IMG/VR virus record: IMGVR_UViG_3300049478_000089
Coordinates: 1 to 24,262 of that record
Direction: 5' to 3' (one strand)
Source of the DNA: a virus
DNA: 24,262 nucleotides
Shown: positions 13,276 to 24,262 of the stretch, piece after piece
Layout of the letters: each line of letters opens with the position of its first letter
Numbering within the stretch: the first letter of the stretch is position 1
Program-made: the position numbers and the translations under genes
The notes under the pieces: model-generated
What the model saw: the letters and a program-made list of their open reading frames with translations, nothing else
Told to the model about the DNA's origin: nothing
Databases searched by the model: none

Positions 13276-13616
13276 GAGTCCTCGTCTGCGGCTCCCGGGA
13301 TTGGGTAGACGCGGCTGCCATTCGTGCCCGCTTGTCAAAGCTTCCAAACGACACAGTCATCGTCCACGGGGCAGCACCCGGTGCGGACTCCCTCGCTGGG
13401 CGCGAAGCAGTCAAGCTAGGCTTTGTTGTCGAGGCATATCCGGCTGCATGGGGGCTGTATGGTCGAGCGGCCGGGCCAATCCGCAATCGCCAGATGCTCG
13501 ATACGAGCCCTGATCTTGTCATCGCATTTCATTATGACATTGCGTCGTCTCATGGCACGCGAGACTGTGTCCTCGAGGCCAAACGCCGTGGGATTGCCGT
13601 GGAGATACTTCCATGA
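13272..13616 (+). CDS. SLOG-family (YspA/DUF2493-like) nucleotide-binding protein
   Basis: 114 residues from GTG 13272 (GTGA overlap). It carries the DUF2493/YspA pattern: VLVCGSRDW, VIVHGAAPGADSLAG, VEAYPAAWGLYGRAAGPIRN and AF. The G-S-R-D-W start and the H-G-A-x-G-A-D loop form the Rossmann-like SLOG nucleotide-binding site. SLOG proteins bind or cleave nucleotides or NAD-like ligands. In phages their role is undefined; a modified nucleotide or a defence signal is a possible ligand. The next gene, a methyltransferase, is coupled (ATGA at 13613-13616). Confidence 0.75.
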   Translation: MRVLVCGSRDWVDAAAIRARLSKLPNDTVIVHGAAPGADSLAGREAVKLGFVVEAYPAAWGLYGRAAGPIRNRQMLDTSPDLVIAFHYDIASSHGTRDCVLEAKRRGIAVEILP

Positions 13617-14362
13617 CTAAGGCTAAACAGCAAGTCCTCTTGAGGGATGCGCTAGCTGCAACCAAACGTCTGGAAGAAGACAGTGTTGATCTAATCATTC
13701 TCGATCCGCCATACAACACGACTAGCCAGCGCTGGGACAAGACTGATCCTGTTACACCAGAGCTGGTCTGGGAGTTGAACAGAGTACTTGCGCCAACCGG
13801 TAGCCTGTACGTGTGGTGTGGGATTGGCGAGAAGTCGCAGTCGCTCATTCGTTGGTTTCCGCTCTTCGCAGAGGTCTTTACGTTCAAAGATCTCATTACA
13901 TGGAAGAAGCGAAGAGGGATTGGAGGACGAAGAGGATGGCTCTACACTCGAGAAGAACTGATGTGGTTCGTAAAGGACAATCATCAGTTTATCTGGAACA
14001 CCGAGGCTCAATACTCTGAGGAGCCTAATCAGTTCAAGGTGGGAATGTCAGGAACGAGGGTTCATCCCTTCAAGCGGCTCACCAATGTGTGGACTGATAT
14101 CCCAGAAACCTTGACTGACAAAGGTATTGCGCACTATACGCCTAAACCGCTTCTGGCAATCCAAAGGCTCATACTTTTGCACACGCAACCTGGAGACCTC
14201 GTGTATGATCCCTTCGTTGGATCTGGAACAACACTAGTTGCATGCAGGCTGCTCGGGCGTTGTGGCCTAGGGGTCGACAACGATCCAGCGTCTGTCGCGG
14301 AAGCTGGGCGGCGGTTAGCTGCGGCAATCAAGTCGAAAGCAGTCCAAATCCTGCAGAGATAA
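13613..14362 (+). CDS. Beta-class DNA methyltransferase (N6-adenine or N4-cytosine)
   Basis: 249 residues. Motif IV, DPPYN, is at 31-35 and the SAM-binding motif I, DPFVGSGTT, at 199-207. The order IV before I defines the beta class, which methylates N6 of adenine or N4 of cytosine; DPPY favours adenine. The region between (about 60-180, KKRRGIGGRRGW, HYTPKP) would hold target recognition. No endonuclease gene is adjacent, so this is probably an orphan phage enzyme that protects DNA or regulates it. ATG 13613 overlaps the SLOG stop. Confidence 0.85.
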   Translation: MTKAKQQVLLRDALAATKRLEEDSVDLIILDPPYNTTSQRWDKTDPVTPELVWELNRVLAPTGSLYVWCGIGEKSQSLIRWFPLFAEVFTFKDLITWKKRRGIGGRRGWLYTREELMWFVKDNHQFIWNTEAQYSEEPNQFKVGMSGTRVHPFKRLTNVWTDIPETLTDKGIAHYTPKPLLAIQRLILLHTQPGDLVYDPFVGSGTTLVACRLLGRCGLGVDNDPASVAEAGRRLAAAIKSKAVQILQR

Positions 14363-18897: not shown

Positions 18898-19323
18898 ATG
18901 AAGATCGGCAAGACCTTCACCTTCGATGCAGCACATCGACTTCAAGACCACGAAGGCAAGTGCCGCAACCTTCACGGCCATACCTACAGCGTCGTCGTGA
19001 CTTTGGAAGGTGAGCTCGACGACCCAGGGAGCGGCAGATCAGGTGCCGGCATGGTCCTAGACTTCAGCCGGCTTGGCGAGTGGTGGAAGCCACTCAGTCA
19101 CGTCCTCGACCACGCGGCGCTACTCCAAGAGACCGACCCCCTGGTGAACCTCCTCACCCTTCTGAGTCCGCCTGTCCGAATAACAACCTTTCGCTTCCCG
19201 CCCACTGCTGAGTGCCTTGCAGACTGGATCTACGACGATCTGGCCTCGTGGCTCGCGCCGATGGTTGTGCATGCCTTCTCGGTTCGTGTCTATGAGACAC
19301 CGACTTCTTGGGCCGAGCGATGA
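18898..19323 (+). CDS. queD: 6-carboxy-5,6,7,8-tetrahydropterin synthase (QueD)
   Basis: 141 residues. FDAAHRL, GKCRNLHGHTY (C22 as the catalytic thiol; H13, H26 and H28 as the zinc ligands), MVLDFSRL, VLDHAALL (D71, H72) and VRVYETPTSWAE form the complete QueD signature. The enzyme converts 7,8-dihydroneopterin triphosphate to 6-carboxytetrahydropterin, step two of 7-deazaguanine synthesis after FolE. ATG 18898 is the natural start, with MKIGKTF leading into the motif. The stop overlaps a tiny Cys-rich gene. Together with QueE and FolE it makes three of the four preQ0 enzymes in this window. Confidence 0.9.
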   Translation: MKIGKTFTFDAAHRLQDHEGKCRNLHGHTYSVVVTLEGELDDPGSGRSGAGMVLDFSRLGEWWKPLSHVLDHAALLQETDPLVNLLTLLSPPVRITTFRFPPTAECLADWIYDDLASWLAPMVVHAFSVRVYETPTSWAER

Positions 19324-19427: not shown

Positions 19428-19573
19428 AGTCGCTCTGGGATCTTACTACTCAGTTCTTCGCCCTTTGCTTTGCACTTGCCTTGGTAGTCGCAGTCCTCTT
19501 GACGACTGCAATCTTTGCAGGGATCTGGTGGGCAACCTTAGTGAGGGCTGCTGAGTGGTGGCTGACATGGTAA
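19424..19573 (+). CDS. Membrane peptide, 49 residues
   Basis: ATG 19424 overlaps the Cys-rich peptide stop. After MKSLWDLTTQ comes one long hydrophobic segment (FFALCFALALVVAVLLTTAI), followed by a Trp-rich end (GIWWATLVRAAEWWLTW). One pass is likely. It overlaps the QueE start by 19 bases. Position inside the que block is notable but its role is unknown. Confidence 0.5.
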   Translation: MKSLWDLTTQFFALCFALALVVAVLLTTAIFAGIWWATLVRAAEWWLTW

Positions 19574-20409
19574 CAACCTCAGTTCCCATTGCAGAGATCT
19601 TCGGGCCAACAATCCAAGGTGAAGGTGCGCTTGCAGGTGTTCCAACCTACTTCCTTCGTGTTGGCGGTTGTGACTTCTCGTGCGTCTGGTGTGACAGCGC
19701 TCACGCAGTCCTTGCAGAGGAAGTCCGTAAGCTGCCGCACTGGAGCGAGGAAGAGATCCTAGAGCAGCTCATCCACCTCTCGCATGGCAAGCCCGGCCCT
19801 GACTGGCTGACAATCAGTGGCGGCAATCCTGCACTCTATGATCTTTCTATGGTTGTGCAGAGCTGGCAACATCGAAAGTCGCCGAGCGGCTGGGCAAGCA
19901 AGGTTGCAGTCGAAACACAAGGCACGAAGTGGCAGCCGTGGTTCGGAGACGTCAATCTTCTCGTTGTGTCGCCTAAGCCACCTTCGAGCACCATGAATAC
20001 CTCGGGTCTCGATGTCTTCATGCGCTGCGTGGCTGCTGCTGAGGAGAATTTCTGCTATCGACGTCTCCAAGACCCAGGTATTCCACCTGACGACTGGCGA
20101 ATGGTCTTCAAGGTCGTAGTCTTCGATGAGATCGACTACAGGTTTGCACGAGACCTCCACATGAGATGGCCGCTCATCAAGTTCTACCTCTCCTGTGGGA
20201 CTGCAATGGGCGGGCTGACTGGCGAGTGGTTGCCGAGCTGCAATAGACCCTCATTGAACAACGGCGGCTACGTCGACACCAAGGTTGACCTGCTTGCCCG
20301 CTACAGTTGGCTCGCCGAGCTTGCCATGAATGACTATGCGATGTCCGACGTTGCTGTCTTGCCGCAGCTCCATGCCCTGACTTGGGGCGCAAGAACAAGG
20401 GGTGTTTGA
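19555..20409 (+). CDS. queE: 7-carboxy-7-deazaguanine synthase (QueE), radical SAM
   Basis: 284 residues. IAEIFGPTIQGEGALAG leads to the radical SAM cluster motif GGCDFSCVWCD (C39-x3-C43-x2-C46), as in QueE. WLTISGGNPALY matches the substrate-binding region and VAVETQGT the conserved VETQGT strand. The enzyme rearranges 6-carboxytetrahydropterin to CDG, the substrate of QueC. GTG 19555, behind GAGGG, is the likeliest start; GTG 19558 and ATG 19567 are also in frame. The last codons run to one base before the FolE start. Confidence 0.85.
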   Translation: MVADMVTTSVPIAEIFGPTIQGEGALAGVPTYFLRVGGCDFSCVWCDSAHAVLAEEVRKLPHWSEEEILEQLIHLSHGKPGPDWLTISGGNPALYDLSMVVQSWQHRKSPSGWASKVAVETQGTKWQPWFGDVNLLVVSPKPPSSTMNTSGLDVFMRCVAAAEENFCYRRLQDPGIPPDDWRMVFKVVVFDEIDYRFARDLHMRWPLIKFYLSCGTAMGGLTGEWLPSCNRPSLNNGGYVDTKVDLLARYSWLAELAMNDYAMSDVAVLPQLHALTWGARTRGV

Positions 20410-20410
20410 C

Positions 20411-21043
20411 GTGGCGCAAGCAGGAGAAATAGGTGTTCGGATTAGGACGCACATAGGCCCACAGAGCATTGAGGATGACATCAAGTCGATCCTTGAGCAG
20501 CTAGGCCTCGATCCATCGAGTCAACACTTTGTCCGAACGCCTGAGCGTGTTGCAAGAGTCTTGCGAGCTTACGTCCAGCCGAATGATCTCGACTCTCTTC
20601 TAGCTGATGGCTTTGAGGATGACGACCCTGAGGAGGGCGAGACACATGAGAAGGTTCTCGTCGTTCAGACCAACATTCCCCTCATGGGACTATGTGCACA
20701 TCACCTTCTCCCATTCTTTGGGGCAGCGGCGGTCGGCTATCTGCCGCGTGATCGCGTGGTCGGCCTATCAAAGCTCACCCGTCTTGTCTATGCGGCTGGT
20801 CATCTGGCCCCGACGACTCAAGAGCACATCACGAACCTCGTTGCGAGCGCCCTCTATGCCTCAAGGGCCATCAACCCGCGGGGAGTTGCGGTTCTGACAA
20901 GCGCGCTTCACGGATGCATGGCAGTCCGCGGAGTTGAGGCACCTGCTACGCGAACGATCGTGTCTGCTATCCGTGGCGACTTCAAAGACTATCCGGCACT
21001 AGAGGCGAAGTTCATGGACTTAGCTAAGGAGGGTCTTGGATGA
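20411..21043 (+). CDS. folE: GTP cyclohydrolase I (FolE)
   Basis: 210 residues. The zinc ligands C95 and H98 lie in LCAHHLLPF, and C169 in LHGCMAVRG; VVGLSKLTRLVYAA and TTQEHIT are the other FolE signatures. The enzyme opens the GTP ring to dihydroneopterin triphosphate, the first step of 7-deazaguanine (and folate) synthesis. A phage copy would supply the precursor for the QueD enzyme 18898-19323. GTG 20411 follows AAGGGG by eight bases; GTG 20402 is in frame but sits within that box. The end overlaps the next gene (ATGA). Confidence 0.9.
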   Translation: MAQAGEIGVRIRTHIGPQSIEDDIKSILEQLGLDPSSQHFVRTPERVARVLRAYVQPNDLDSLLADGFEDDDPEEGETHEKVLVVQTNIPLMGLCAHHLLPFFGAAAVGYLPRDRVVGLSKLTRLVYAAGHLAPTTQEHITNLVASALYASRAINPRGVAVLTSALHGCMAVRGVEAPATRTIVSAIRGDFKDYPALEAKFMDLAKEGLG

Positions 21044-21312
21044 GTGATCCCTTCTTCCGGCGATACCATCGTGCACTCGCAGATGCAGCTGACATTGTCA
21101 CGTCCCGCGACGCAGAGGGCCGCAACGCTTCGATGGGAATAGAGGCTCAGTACGAGTCAACTGTCTTTGTCATCGACATCGTGCGGATGAAGTGCCAGCG
21201 GGCCAAGTCGTATCTCGCAGCGGGCAACCTGGAGAAGTTCAGAGAAGAGATGCTCGACTGCATGAACTACTCTGCGTTTGCTGCGGCCCTTGAAGACCGA
21301 GGTGAGGAGTGA
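21040..21312 (+). CDS. Nmad1/DUF1599-like small protein
   Basis: 90 residues, ATG 21040 after AAGGAGGGTC, overlapping FolE. The layout ADIVTSRDAEGRN, STVFVIDIVRMKCQRAKSYLAAGNLEKFREEMLDCMNYSAFAAALED, that is a variable start, then I/V-R-M-K-x-x-R and a closing D-x-x-N-Y-x-x-F, is like the nucleotide-modification-associated (Nmad1/DUF1599) or MazG-like helical family. Iyer and colleagues linked such domains to nucleotide-modification operons. The placement between FolE and the DpdA-like gene agrees with that. No metal-binding acidic motif is certain, so this is a suggestion. Confidence 0.5.
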   Translation: MSDPFFRRYHRALADAADIVTSRDAEGRNASMGIEAQYESTVFVIDIVRMKCQRAKSYLAAGNLEKFREEMLDCMNYSAFAAALEDRGEE

Positions 21313-22118
21313 TGCCAGCGCCGCAGTTTGCACCAGTCGCGCCACTTCCAGCTCTGCGTACACTGGCCAAAGCCGGAGTCCTTGGTAACTATCAACTTCT
21401 GATTGCACCGATGGTGCTCGAACATGCGATGGAGTACTTCCACTTCTTCACCGGGGAGCATGACGATCAGTTCGTCATCCTCGACAACGGCGTGATTGAG
21501 CTTGGCCATTCACTTAGTGCCCCTGATCTTCATTATGCAGCTGATGTCGTAGGGGCTCATGTTGTGGTGATGCCTGATACTATCGACGACGCGGAAGCGA
21601 CGATACAGCAGGTCGAAGATGGCCTGGAGACCTTCCGCAAGTACGATACAGCAACCGACACTCTAGGGGTCGTCCAAGGTACGACAATGGGAGAGTGCCT
21701 ACGATGCGCAGAGAGTCTAGTGAAGGCGGGGGTGGACTGGCTGGCCGTACCGCGCGGCCTCACACCGCATCTTGGCAGCAGAGTGCCACTGGTGAGACAG
21801 GTAGCTCAGTTCGGGCTGCCCATCCACATCTTGGGCTTCAGCGAAGATATGAAGGACGACATCGAGACAATGATGTCACACCCGCTAATCAGGGGGATCG
21901 ACGCAGCAACGCCAATCTGGATGAAGGGCCTTCTGCCAGACGAGCCACCGAGAGTAGCACGCTTCGGACGGCGCCCCTTCGACTTCTGGCAGCGCCCACC
22001 GGAGGCAATGGGGCCGGAGTTCACACGAAACGTCGAAACGGTACGCGCCTGGATCAGCCACGAGTGGCACGCCCAGATCGATGCCCAGGGTGTCCATACA
22101 GGCGTGGTCGAACGGTAG
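21312..22118 (+). CDS. dpdA: DpdA-like DNA (tRNA-guanine transglycosylase-type) deazaguanine transglycosylase
   Basis: 268 residues. Phage DpdA-type text is present: YQLLIAPMVLEHAMEYF, FVILDNGVIELG (D58, E63), DVVGAHVVVMPDTIDD, LGVVQGTTMGECLRCAESLVKAGVDWLAVPRGL, IHILGFSEDMKDD and RGIDAATPIW. This is a TIM-barrel queuine-transglycosylase relative that swaps guanine in DNA for a 7-deazaguanine such as preQ0. Direct linkage to FolE, QueD and QueE strengthens the call. The length fits short phage DpdA forms; bacterial DpdA is longer. ATG 21312 is preferred to GTG 21309. It overlaps the polymerase start by 55 bases. Confidence 0.8.
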   Translation: MPAPQFAPVAPLPALRTLAKAGVLGNYQLLIAPMVLEHAMEYFHFFTGEHDDQFVILDNGVIELGHSLSAPDLHYAADVVGAHVVVMPDTIDDAEATIQQVEDGLETFRKYDTATDTLGVVQGTTMGECLRCAESLVKAGVDWLAVPRGLTPHLGSRVPLVRQVAQFGLPIHILGFSEDMKDDIETMMSHPLIRGIDAATPIWMKGLLPDEPPRVARFGRRPFDFWQRPPEAMGPEFTRNVETVRAWISHEWHAQIDAQGVHTGVVER

Positions 22119-24262
22119 GATCTGACGGTCCACCAGATGCGCCACTCGTTGTCATAGGTGAGGCACCCGGTCGGGACGAGGTTGCAAGTGGAAGGCCATT
22201 CGTCGGTCGATCGGGCAAGCTCCTGAATGCTGCACTCGCTAGGGCCGGTATCGACCGTGCGGATGTCTACACGCTGAACGCGCTGCAGTGCCAGCCGACT
22301 GAACAACCTCCGTCTCGCACTGCCATTGACGCATGCCGCGTAAGACTGGCCGAGGAGGTCCTTGCACATCCGCGCAAGGTCATCCTCACGATGGGCAACT
22401 CAGCAATGCGAGGCTTCCTGGGCGAACACAGCTTCAAGATTACATCGAAGCGCGGTCATCCCATCGATCTAGAAGAACTTGGCATCATCCTGCCGACCTT
22501 CCACCCTGCCTCGATCCTCCGCAATCAAGGTGAGTATCCACGGTGGCTCGAGGATCTCAAGTATGCAGCTAAGTTGCTCGAGAATGGCCGCGACAGTCTC
22601 AAGTCACCAGGCAAGCCAACCGCATATATCATGCTCTTGGGGCCAGAAGAAGACGTCTACTACCCTAAGATAGGCGAGTTGAAAGCTTGGGACAACAACA
22701 TCGTCGATGGCAGCCAACTTCGAGATTGGCCAATCCGCAGAGTAGTCACTGGCATACCAGCAGCAATCCGTGCTGTGGACTTGCTCCTGCAGCAGGAAGT
22801 TGTCGCAGCTGACATTGAGACAGCATATAGCTACTCGCCGCGGCTCGGCAAGATCCTTGCGTTGGCTGTTGCATGGAGTCCGTTCGAAGCTGTTGTGTTC
22901 AGCGAAGGCCTCCTCGACTCGCCTGCCTTCCGCCCGCATCTCGTTCGTTTGCTCACAAGCAAAGGTCCGCTTGCTGTGGGCCACAACTGGAAGTGGGACT
23001 CATCGTATCTGCGTCATCAATACCTCGATGGGAAGTGGCCTGCCGAAGGCATGATCGTCAATGCGCATGACACGCTTCTTGAGCACTACTGCCTCGATGA
23101 GACAAAAGGTACGCATGCCCTCGAGAGTCTTGCAGGCGACCTGCTAGGGGCGGAGGACTACAAGTATGTTGTTCGCAAGTATGGTGTGGGCGACCAAGGC
23201 TACGAGAACGTACCACGTGAGATCCTCTATCCATATGCAGCGCTGGACACCACGCACACCTTCGCTCTCCACGAGATGCTGTGCCCAAGGGTGCAGGCAA
23301 GCCTTGGACTGAAGAAGCTCTACAATGATCTCCTGCTCCCCGCGTCGATCTTCCTCCAGAAGGTTCAAGACTACGGCCTGTGGGCAGATCGAGACTTCGT
23401 CGAGCAGCTTGACAAGATGCATGGCGATCGAGTGGTGGCAGCACGAGAGGCGTTGATGCGAGAGGTCGCACCCATTTGGGACACCGAGGAATACATGGCG
23501 TCGAGATGGGCAACGAAGAAGATACCTGACGGCTACAATGGGCAAAACTGGAAGCACACGAGCTTTGTCCTCGAGAAGTTGATCGGCTGGGTGCCGATGA
23601 ACACGAACGAGCGGACCCTTCGCGACCTCGACCAGACCGGCAAGGACCAATCTGCGACCTTCGGATACAAGGCAAAGAACTATGCCCGTGGCCATCCCAA
23701 CCGGAAGGTGAAGCTCAACTACCCGTACATCCAGGCTCTCATCGACTTGAGACTCGCTCGCCATGCGCACCGCATGCTTGTAATGCAGATCAAAGAGAAG
23801 ATCGAGCCGGATGGGCGCTTGCACACAACCTTCAACATGCACTCGACCGAGACTGGGCGATTGAGCTCCTCTGCACCCAACCTACAGAACCTTCCCGTGC
23901 CCGAGAAAGACGAGGAGCATCCGGCCCGAGACATCGTCGGGGCACCTCCGGGCCGTGTCATCATTGAGGCAGACTACAGCCAGCTTGAGTTGCGCATCCT
24001 CGCTCACTTTAGCGACGACGATCACCTCCTCGATGTCTACCGGGAAGGACGTGATCTGCATACCGAGCTCTCGATCGCCATTTGGGGTCCGGGGTTCACG
24101 AACTATCAGCGCGTTCGGGCCAAGGCTGTGAACTTCGGTATTGCCTACGGCCGTGGTGCTGGATCGATTGCAGCTGAGCATGACATTCCTGAAGAGGAAG
24201 CTGCAGAGATGCGGCGGACTTGGTTCAAGACGTTTCCCAAGGCAGCTGTTTGGCTAGAGAAG
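22064..24262 (+). CDS. polA: Family 4 uracil-DNA glycosylase fused to DNA polymerase I (3' end cut by the window)
   Basis: 733 residues to the window edge, with no stop. Residues 1-165 are a family 4 UDG: C7-x2-C10, C76-x14-C91 (the four 4Fe-4S ligands), GEAPGRDE at 32-39, FVGRSGKLL and FHPASILRN. Residues about 240-400 are the 3'-5' exonuclease: D250-I-E252, N308 with D312, and Y391-x3-D395. Then comes the family A polymerase: motif A, D637 (ADYSQLELR), and motif B, R683-x3-K687-x3-F691-x3-Y695, matching E. coli Pol I R754/K758/F762/Y766. Motif C lies beyond the edge. GTG 22064 puts the first Fe-S cysteine at residue 7. No AGGAGG is obvious; coupling to dpdA is likely. Confidence 0.85.
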   Translation, partial: MARPDRCPGCPYRRGRTVGSDGPPDAPLVVIGEAPGRDEVASGRPFVGRSGKLLNAALARAGIDRADVYTLNALQCQPTEQPPSRTAIDACRVRLAEEVLAHPRKVILTMGNSAMRGFLGEHSFKITSKRGHPIDLEELGIILPTFHPASILRNQGEYPRWLEDLKYAAKLLENGRDSLKSPGKPTAYIMLLGPEEDVYYPKIGELKAWDNNIVDGSQLRDWPIRRVVTGIPAAIRAVDLLLQQEVVAADIETAYSYSPRLGKILALAVAWSPFEAVVFSEGLLDSPAFRPHLVRLLTSKGPLAVGHNWKWDSSYLRHQYLDGKWPAEGMIVNAHDTLLEHYCLDETKGTHALESLAGDLLGAEDYKYVVRKYGVGDQGYENVPREILYPYAALDTTHTFALHEMLCPRVQASLGLKKLYNDLLLPASIFLQKVQDYGLWADRDFVEQLDKMHGDRVVAAREALMREVAPIWDTEEYMASRWATKKIPDGYNGQNWKHTSFVLEKLIGWVPMNTNERTLRDLDQTGKDQSATFGYKAKNYARGHPNRKVKLNYPYIQALIDLRLARHAHRMLVMQIKEKIEPDGRLHTTFNMHSTETGRLSSSAPNLQNLPVPEKDEEHPARDIVGAPPGRVIIEADYSQLELRILAHFSDDDHLLDVYREGRDLHTELSIAIWGPGFTNYQRVRAKAVNFGIAYGRGAGSIAAEHDIPEEEAAEMRRTWFKTFPKAAVWLEK

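Follow-up and report, generated by a model that had tools for sequence, protein, structure and literature searches.

DNA polymerases with an N-terminal uracil-DNA glycosylase (UDG) domain are an already known kind of phage protein, one of them being in print (Pseudomonas phage PaBG) and another in the PDB (9qhs). The UDG domain of the PaBG DNAP I was modelled on Tth UDG 1ui0 (PMC7412058); PaBG differs from the locus studied here in belonging to a jumbo phage lineage, and the accessible part of the same report describes no link to dpdA, the gene for a DNA guanine transglycosylase (PMC7412058). The polymerase of Thermus phage phiLo, to which PDB 9qhs is identical over 183 residues, likewise joins UDG to PolA, with intact motifs and four cysteines in the gene, but has 1175 aa, and no dpdA is annotated in the surrounding stretch examined. 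The chain in 9qhs lacks the C-x2-C pair, beginning only at phiLo residue 34, and a complete cluster would therefore not be expected in that construct. SPO1-type polymerases such as that of CampHawk also have an N-terminal UDG-like domain on PolA, in which, however, the cysteine ligands are absent and motif 1 is lost. Standalone family 4 UDGs (Tth and Thermotoga TM0511) have the pocket residues and four cysteines in common with the domain described below, but are unfused to a polymerase, and Tth has N89.

Two Brevundimonas phages, vB_BpoS-StAshley and vB_BpoS-MaInes, resemble the present locus in having an intact-motif UDG-exonuclease-PolA gene directly after a DpdA-like gene, together with queC, queD and queE, as taken from the annotated record for StAshley and from similarity for MaInes. 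Their polymerases are nevertheless only about 30% identical to the one studied here, they possess queC, and they are annotated merely as DNA polymerase and hypothetical protein. In the open-access literature no functional assay was found for the UDG-like domains of phage polymerases, and its full texts yielded no report of a dpdA/UDG-polymerase pairing.

Architecture and active site of the fusion

The DNA analysed (the window) is a viral record of 24,262 bases whose contig ends inside the polymerase gene. Its relevant features are:

18898..19323, + strand: QueD-like 6-pyruvoyl-tetrahydropterin synthase homologue (PF01242, 113.2 bits; phrog_2389)
19555..20409, + strand: QueE-like radical SAM enzyme (phrog_2076, E 3.1e-29)
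20402..21043, + strand: GTP cyclohydrolase I, folE (PF01227, 152.5 bits)
21309..22118, + strand: predicted DpdA-like DNA guanine transglycosylase, overlapping the polymerase start by 55 bases
22064..24262, + strand: UDG - 3'-5' exonuclease - family A DNA polymerase fusion, 733 codons, 3' end cut by the contig end
22064..22579, + strand: family-4-like UDG domain, residues 1-172 (PF03167, TIGR00758, phmmer to PDB 1vk2/1ui0)
22082..22093, + strand: Cys7 and Cys10 codons (C-x2-C), at 22082 and 22091, inside the dpdA overlap
22157..22171, + strand: motif 1 GEAPG, residues 32-36 (Glu33 = Tth E41)
22289..22336, + strand: Cys76 and Cys91, the C-x14-C pair predicted to supply the last two of the four Fe-S ligands
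22502..22513, + strand: motif 2 HPAS, residues 147-150 (His147 = Tth H155)
22775..23293, + strand: 3'-5' exonuclease domain (PF01612, 45.7 bits) with DIE, NWKWD and YAALD motifs
23717..24259, + strand: family A polymerase domain (PF00476) with motifs A and B, motif C lying beyond the contig

The frame opening with GTG 22064 reaches the window end over 733 codons with zero stops, and this GTG is the only in-frame ATG, GTG or TTG between about 22000 and the second cysteine codon. All three domains exceed the curated Pfam cut-offs: PF03167 over residues 21-158 (102.9 bits against 24.3), DNA_pol_A_exo1 over residues 238-410 (45.7 against 23.6) and DNA_pol_A over residues 552-732 (162.8 against 34.3). 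Polymerase motifs A (DYSQLELR) and B (RAKAVNFGIAYG) were recognized by reading, and motif C (LVHDA) was found in L102, a full-length relative with 72% identity. The cysteine spacings, GEAPG, HPAS, the exonuclease motifs and the family A polymerase listed in the first-pass annotation were thus all recovered by reading and Pfam. Exonuclease residues D241, E243, Y382 and D386 (L102 numbering) are invariant across 60 relatives. The contigs of L102 and L103 have complete polymerases, the same gene order and 68% identity in the UDG domain. The VIA comparison list for the L102 polymerase model, which covers residues 185-851, gave a Z of about 36 against Bst PolA; the UDG domain of the L102 model is of high confidence, with block means mostly of 90-96. 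A BFVD search returned phage polymerases with alignments exceeding 900 columns, and a single-protein scan of viral contigs gave zero matches.

The four cysteines characteristic of family 4 UDGs are present as C7, C10, C76 and C91. The uracil pocket of Tth UDGa includes, according to the accessible text of PMC5387724, E41, E47, F54, N80 and H155, of which E47 excludes thymine, and N89 positions a water molecule, the N89A replacement lowering activity without abolishing it. The five pocket residues align to E33, E39, F46, N72 and H147 of the window; the counterpart of N89 in the alignment is Gln81, and only about 9 of 76 fusions of the dpdA clade have an asparagine in this stretch. Comparison with family 4 structures, as had been proposed at first pass, gave phmmer E-values of 5e-26 for Tth and 5e-28 for Thermotoga TM0511. 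The best-scoring UDG model was the family 4 model TIGR00758, but its 104.1 bits fell short of the cut-off of 125.3, and the domain is therefore named family-4-like. Identity with UdgX, defined in the accessible part of PMC10359453 by a KRRIH loop and a GEQPG motif, was rejected: the window has GEAPG and its C76-C91 segment reads CQPTEQPPSRTAIDAC, neither matching, and TIGR03914 reached 97.6 bits against 189.95.

The deazaguanine cluster and the spread of the pairing

The ORF at 21309-22118 gave zero Pfam matches. Its tblastn matches included phage genes annotated as DNA guanine transglycosylase (Flavobacterium immuto, E 5e-4) and an ORF in Campylobacter phages. Its model, built from a 60-row alignment (pLDDT 95.3), had a TGT as top Foldseek match (1.2e-9) and DpdA PDB 7ui4 at E 1.8e-7, and in VIA it exhibited the TGT fold with Z 19.5 and rmsd 3.3 over 239 aligned residues; the first-pass naming of this neighbour as a deazaguanine gene agrees with the TGT/DpdA fold, and the ORF is, as modelled, a predicted DpdA-like DNA guanine transglycosylase. 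Two aspartates, D59 and D198, are unchanged throughout the 60 alignment rows and may correspond to the catalytic Asp of TGT. With folE, queE and queD just upstream of this TGT-fold ORF, the region constitutes a predicted gene cluster for 7-deazaguanine modification of DNA. The search for queC was negative for the window and for the examined stretches of L102, L103 and L186; either the host may supply preQ0, or an earlier intermediate may be the base that is inserted. An N6/N4-type DNA methyltransferase is encoded at window positions 13613-14362, some 4.5 kb before the deazaguanine genes, and may give this phage a further kind of DNA modification.

The 55-base overlap of dpdA with the polymerase gene is real but unusual (by start positions, the overlap in L102 is 88 bases), and the conserved feature is adjacency. 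The translational linkage that had been deduced from the overlap is unsupported as stated, since just 10 of 98 relatives have their first cysteine codon within dpdA.

IMG/VR was searched with three seeds, i.e. DpdA, UDG and the polymerase domain alone; the resulting sets have contigs in common, and match E-values and counts rest on HMMs built from few seeds and on contigs that are fragments. Among the best 80 of 91 DpdA relatives, polA was present in 77/80 loci and a fused UDG in 76/80, the exceptions being L087 (polA without UDG match), L066 (cut inside the UDG), and L084 and L096 (without polA). The best 80 of 208 UDG matches gave 78 new loci, with a fusion in 68/78 and dpdA in 31 of these 68. 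Among the best 80 of 175 polymerase-domain matches, 77 were fused (77/80) and 3 were cut at the contig start; UDG was thus present in 77/77 readable cases, and dpdA in 73/73 with upstream sequence, the remaining 4 fusions beginning within 581 bases of the contig end. When polymerases were clustered by single linkage at 50% identity (n=66), 40 clusters were fused with dpdA, 23 fused with dpdA unseen, 1 unfused with dpdA, and 2 had neither. An independent motif sample of phage polymerases comprised 88 whose start could be read, besides 32 that were cut; a UDG was present in 12 of the 88, the 12 including the L102 and L103 contigs and one very weak match.

Among isolated phages, a DpdA-like gene and a UDG-polymerase co-occur in three lineages (2 Brevundimonas, 5 Bacillus and 1 Weizmannia phages), and the two genes adjoin in the annotated neighbourhoods of StAshley, BSP7 and Youna2. 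The polymerases of BSP7 (L004:5974-8877) and Youna2 (L183:5968-9237) are each annotated as two genes, the break in BSP7 immediately following motif B; the CampHawk polymerase is similarly split, around an HNH gene, and an intron or homing-endonuclease insertion is a possible cause.

In a FastTree tree of 135 polymerases, a fast method that left several open forks and long branches, dpdA-bearing rows fell almost all into one clade of 98 (local support 98), and the fewest label changes were 7 for dpdA and 4 for UDG. Over 96 loci, with pairs that are not independent, distances correlated with those of the polymerase at rho 0.785 for DpdA, 0.731 for UDG, 0.744 for queC and 0.856 for Sak4, and more weakly for folE (0.309), queE (0.427) and queD (0.437). 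Because DpdA and UDG distances track the polymerase, dpdA and UDG-polA were concluded to pass down together as a core pair; some of the precursor genes seem to be exchanged. L105-L107, situated inside the clade, lack dpdA and have an intact UDG, which is therefore not kept solely for the sake of dpdA. A dpdA search of whole UDG-polymerase records was positive in 2 of 48, both being the L102 and L103 contigs, with 36 of the 48 picked for a flank without dpdA. UDG-less records had dpdA in 1/49 (a partial match) and queC in 1/49. With 31/68, 2/48 and 1/49 in the respective samples, dpdA was rejected as a general partner of UDG-polymerases, and given this limited spread the pairing is a clade trait. 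The linkage looks to be inherited by descent, with UDG-polymerases outside the clade lacking dpdA, and is best read as a gene pair co-inherited in one large phage lineage.

Retention and loss of the glycosylase domain

The 76 fusions found through their dpdA neighbour were obtained without selection on the UDG. Retention among them was 69 for C7, 69 for C10, 68 for E33, 73 for E39, 66 for N72, 67 for C76, 69 for C91 and 70 for H147; the Glu/Glu/Asn/His set was complete in 62/76 and all eight residues in 54/76, at least one key residue thus being missing in 22/76. Four cysteines were present in 67, none in 6 and one to three in 3, an all-or-none pattern as expected for a cluster. The position of F54 is occupied by Phe in 33 (as in the window), Leu in 21, Ile in 14, Met in 7 and a gap in 1, so that other clade members might differ in specificity. 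The dN/dS of the UDG domain was 0.14-0.15 for the window versus L102 and L103, comparisons in which synonymous sites are near saturation, and 0.08 for L102 versus L103, within the range of the exonuclease (0.08-0.16). Every one of 25 dpdA-clade records had exactly one PF03167 match, lying in an open frame of 788-1196 aa, i.e. one UDG per genome, in the polymerase. As judged from residue retention and a dN/dS of 0.08-0.15, the active site is maintained by selection, and the original suggestion that retained Fe-S ligands and both glycosylase motifs may mean an active domain is supported by this.

Losses were found as well. Recognizable UDG domains have disappeared in the close kin L087 and L180, and among 20 chosen sequences from named phage records (3 of them separate UDG genes) all eight residues occur in 8. 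The kinship to SPO1-type polymerases noted at first pass holds, but CampHawk is degenerate, with none of the four cysteines and much of the pocket lost along with motif 1. PMBT14, Lebethron and P744 have kept the four cysteines and lost motif 1, F54 and N80; these contrasting losses indicate that pocket and cluster can decay separately. In Huwbert and KimJongPhill most key residues are missing. Intact-motif fusions occur elsewhere too (phiLo, ctfzr933 and others), and the window UDG, by its residues, is in the intact state.

Five of the 76 polymerase N-termini (L047, L054, L056, L063 and L064) have zero of the four cysteines and retain Glu/Glu/Asn/His, making them possible candidates for a UDG without an Fe-S cluster. 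Residual UDG similarity was detected in a six-sequence test at the polymerase N-termini of the T5-like Ceto (L182:3815-6388; domain E 1.1e-8) and of Brevundimonas phage Polewnik (L181:5782-8316; 3.4e-15), and many phage PolA may descend from a form that had the UDG domain.

Possible roles of the glycosylase domain

The reading favoured here, at a probability of roughly 0.6, is that of a phage replicative polymerase with a proofreading exonuclease and an N-terminal family-4-type UDG that most likely binds a 4Fe-4S cluster and excises uracil, providing uracil surveillance. The UDG domain would inspect DNA at or just behind the replisome and remove uracil, whether it arose through misincorporation of dUMP or deamination of cytosine, leaving the resulting abasic site to host or phage repair. 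Against an active UDG count the missed TIGR00758 cut-off, Gln81, the variation at F54, the 22/76 incomplete members and the losses in L087 and L180; furthermore, a glycosylase acting ahead of the polymerase would produce abasic sites in the single-stranded template, which seems harmful.

Several other explanations were weighed. A sequencing or assembly error fusing two genes, which the first-pass annotation had itself raised, might be imagined for a 24 kb contig that ends inside the gene; the fusion is, however, neither chance nor a joining error, because it recurs across the three differently seeded sets, and it is found in 133 of 138 polymerase clusters at 90% identity (from IMG/VR loci mostly seeded for fusion) and in cultured phages such as StAshley, so that this explanation is already refuted and its probability negligible. 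It is possible, though on balance doubtful, that the UDG serves the polymerase as a structural or DNA-binding element without catalytic function, concerned with processivity or with template or uracil sensing, its residues being held for fold and binding. Such a role would suit the many degenerate fusions (CampHawk, PMBT14, Lebethron, P744, Huwbert and KimJongPhill), the residual similarity in Ceto and Polewnik and the replacement of N89, but does not predict the joint retention of the uracil pocket, including E47, that is seen as E/E/N/H in 62/76 unselected members and persists in 5/76 that have lost all cysteines.

Two further proposals connect the domain with guanine modification. That dpdA and the UDG-polymerase form a working pair, with replication, uracil removal and guanine exchange in one complex and the UDG guarding or preparing hypermodified DNA, draws on the changed stacking residue in over half of the clade and is improbable. 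Likewise improbable is a pocket adapted to a different base connected with DNA hypermodification, the domain serving the DpdA pathway directly: dpdA does adjoin 73/73 of the nearest polymerases for which upstream sequence exists, 42/76 clade members have Leu, Ile or Met at the F54 position, and a UDG-polymerase clade outside dpdA sits with genes for 5-hmdU kinase and amino acid:DNA transferase, but the window retains the canonical Phe and E47, the UDG is intact in the dpdA-less L105-L107, and thymidylate-synthase-like genes occur in 2/24 IMG/VR fusion records versus 4/49 UDG-less controls, indicating no general link to hypermodification. Including named phages (7/13), such genes are found in 9/37 dpdA-less fusion records; the idea that UDG-polymerases are a general marker of hypermodified genomes, suggested by early named examples, is unsupported as a rule. 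A 5-hmdU kinase was found in 3/49 records, 2 over the cut-off. In the UDG-polymerase contig L141 (5933-8928), polA is preceded by domains of an amino acid:DNA transferase (ADDT) and a 5-hmdU DNA kinase, a predicted thymine-hypermodification setting for such a fusion. A dUTPase, considered as an explanation, was present in 5/25 clade records versus 5/25 controls (3 of these over the cut-off), i.e. without contrast.

For the uracil-surveillance reading, the near-completeness of the active site in polymerases of this clade makes uracil excision by a replicase directly testable. The steady dpdA neighbour, in turn, gives access to the question of how replication and base exchange are combined in 7-deazaguanine phages.
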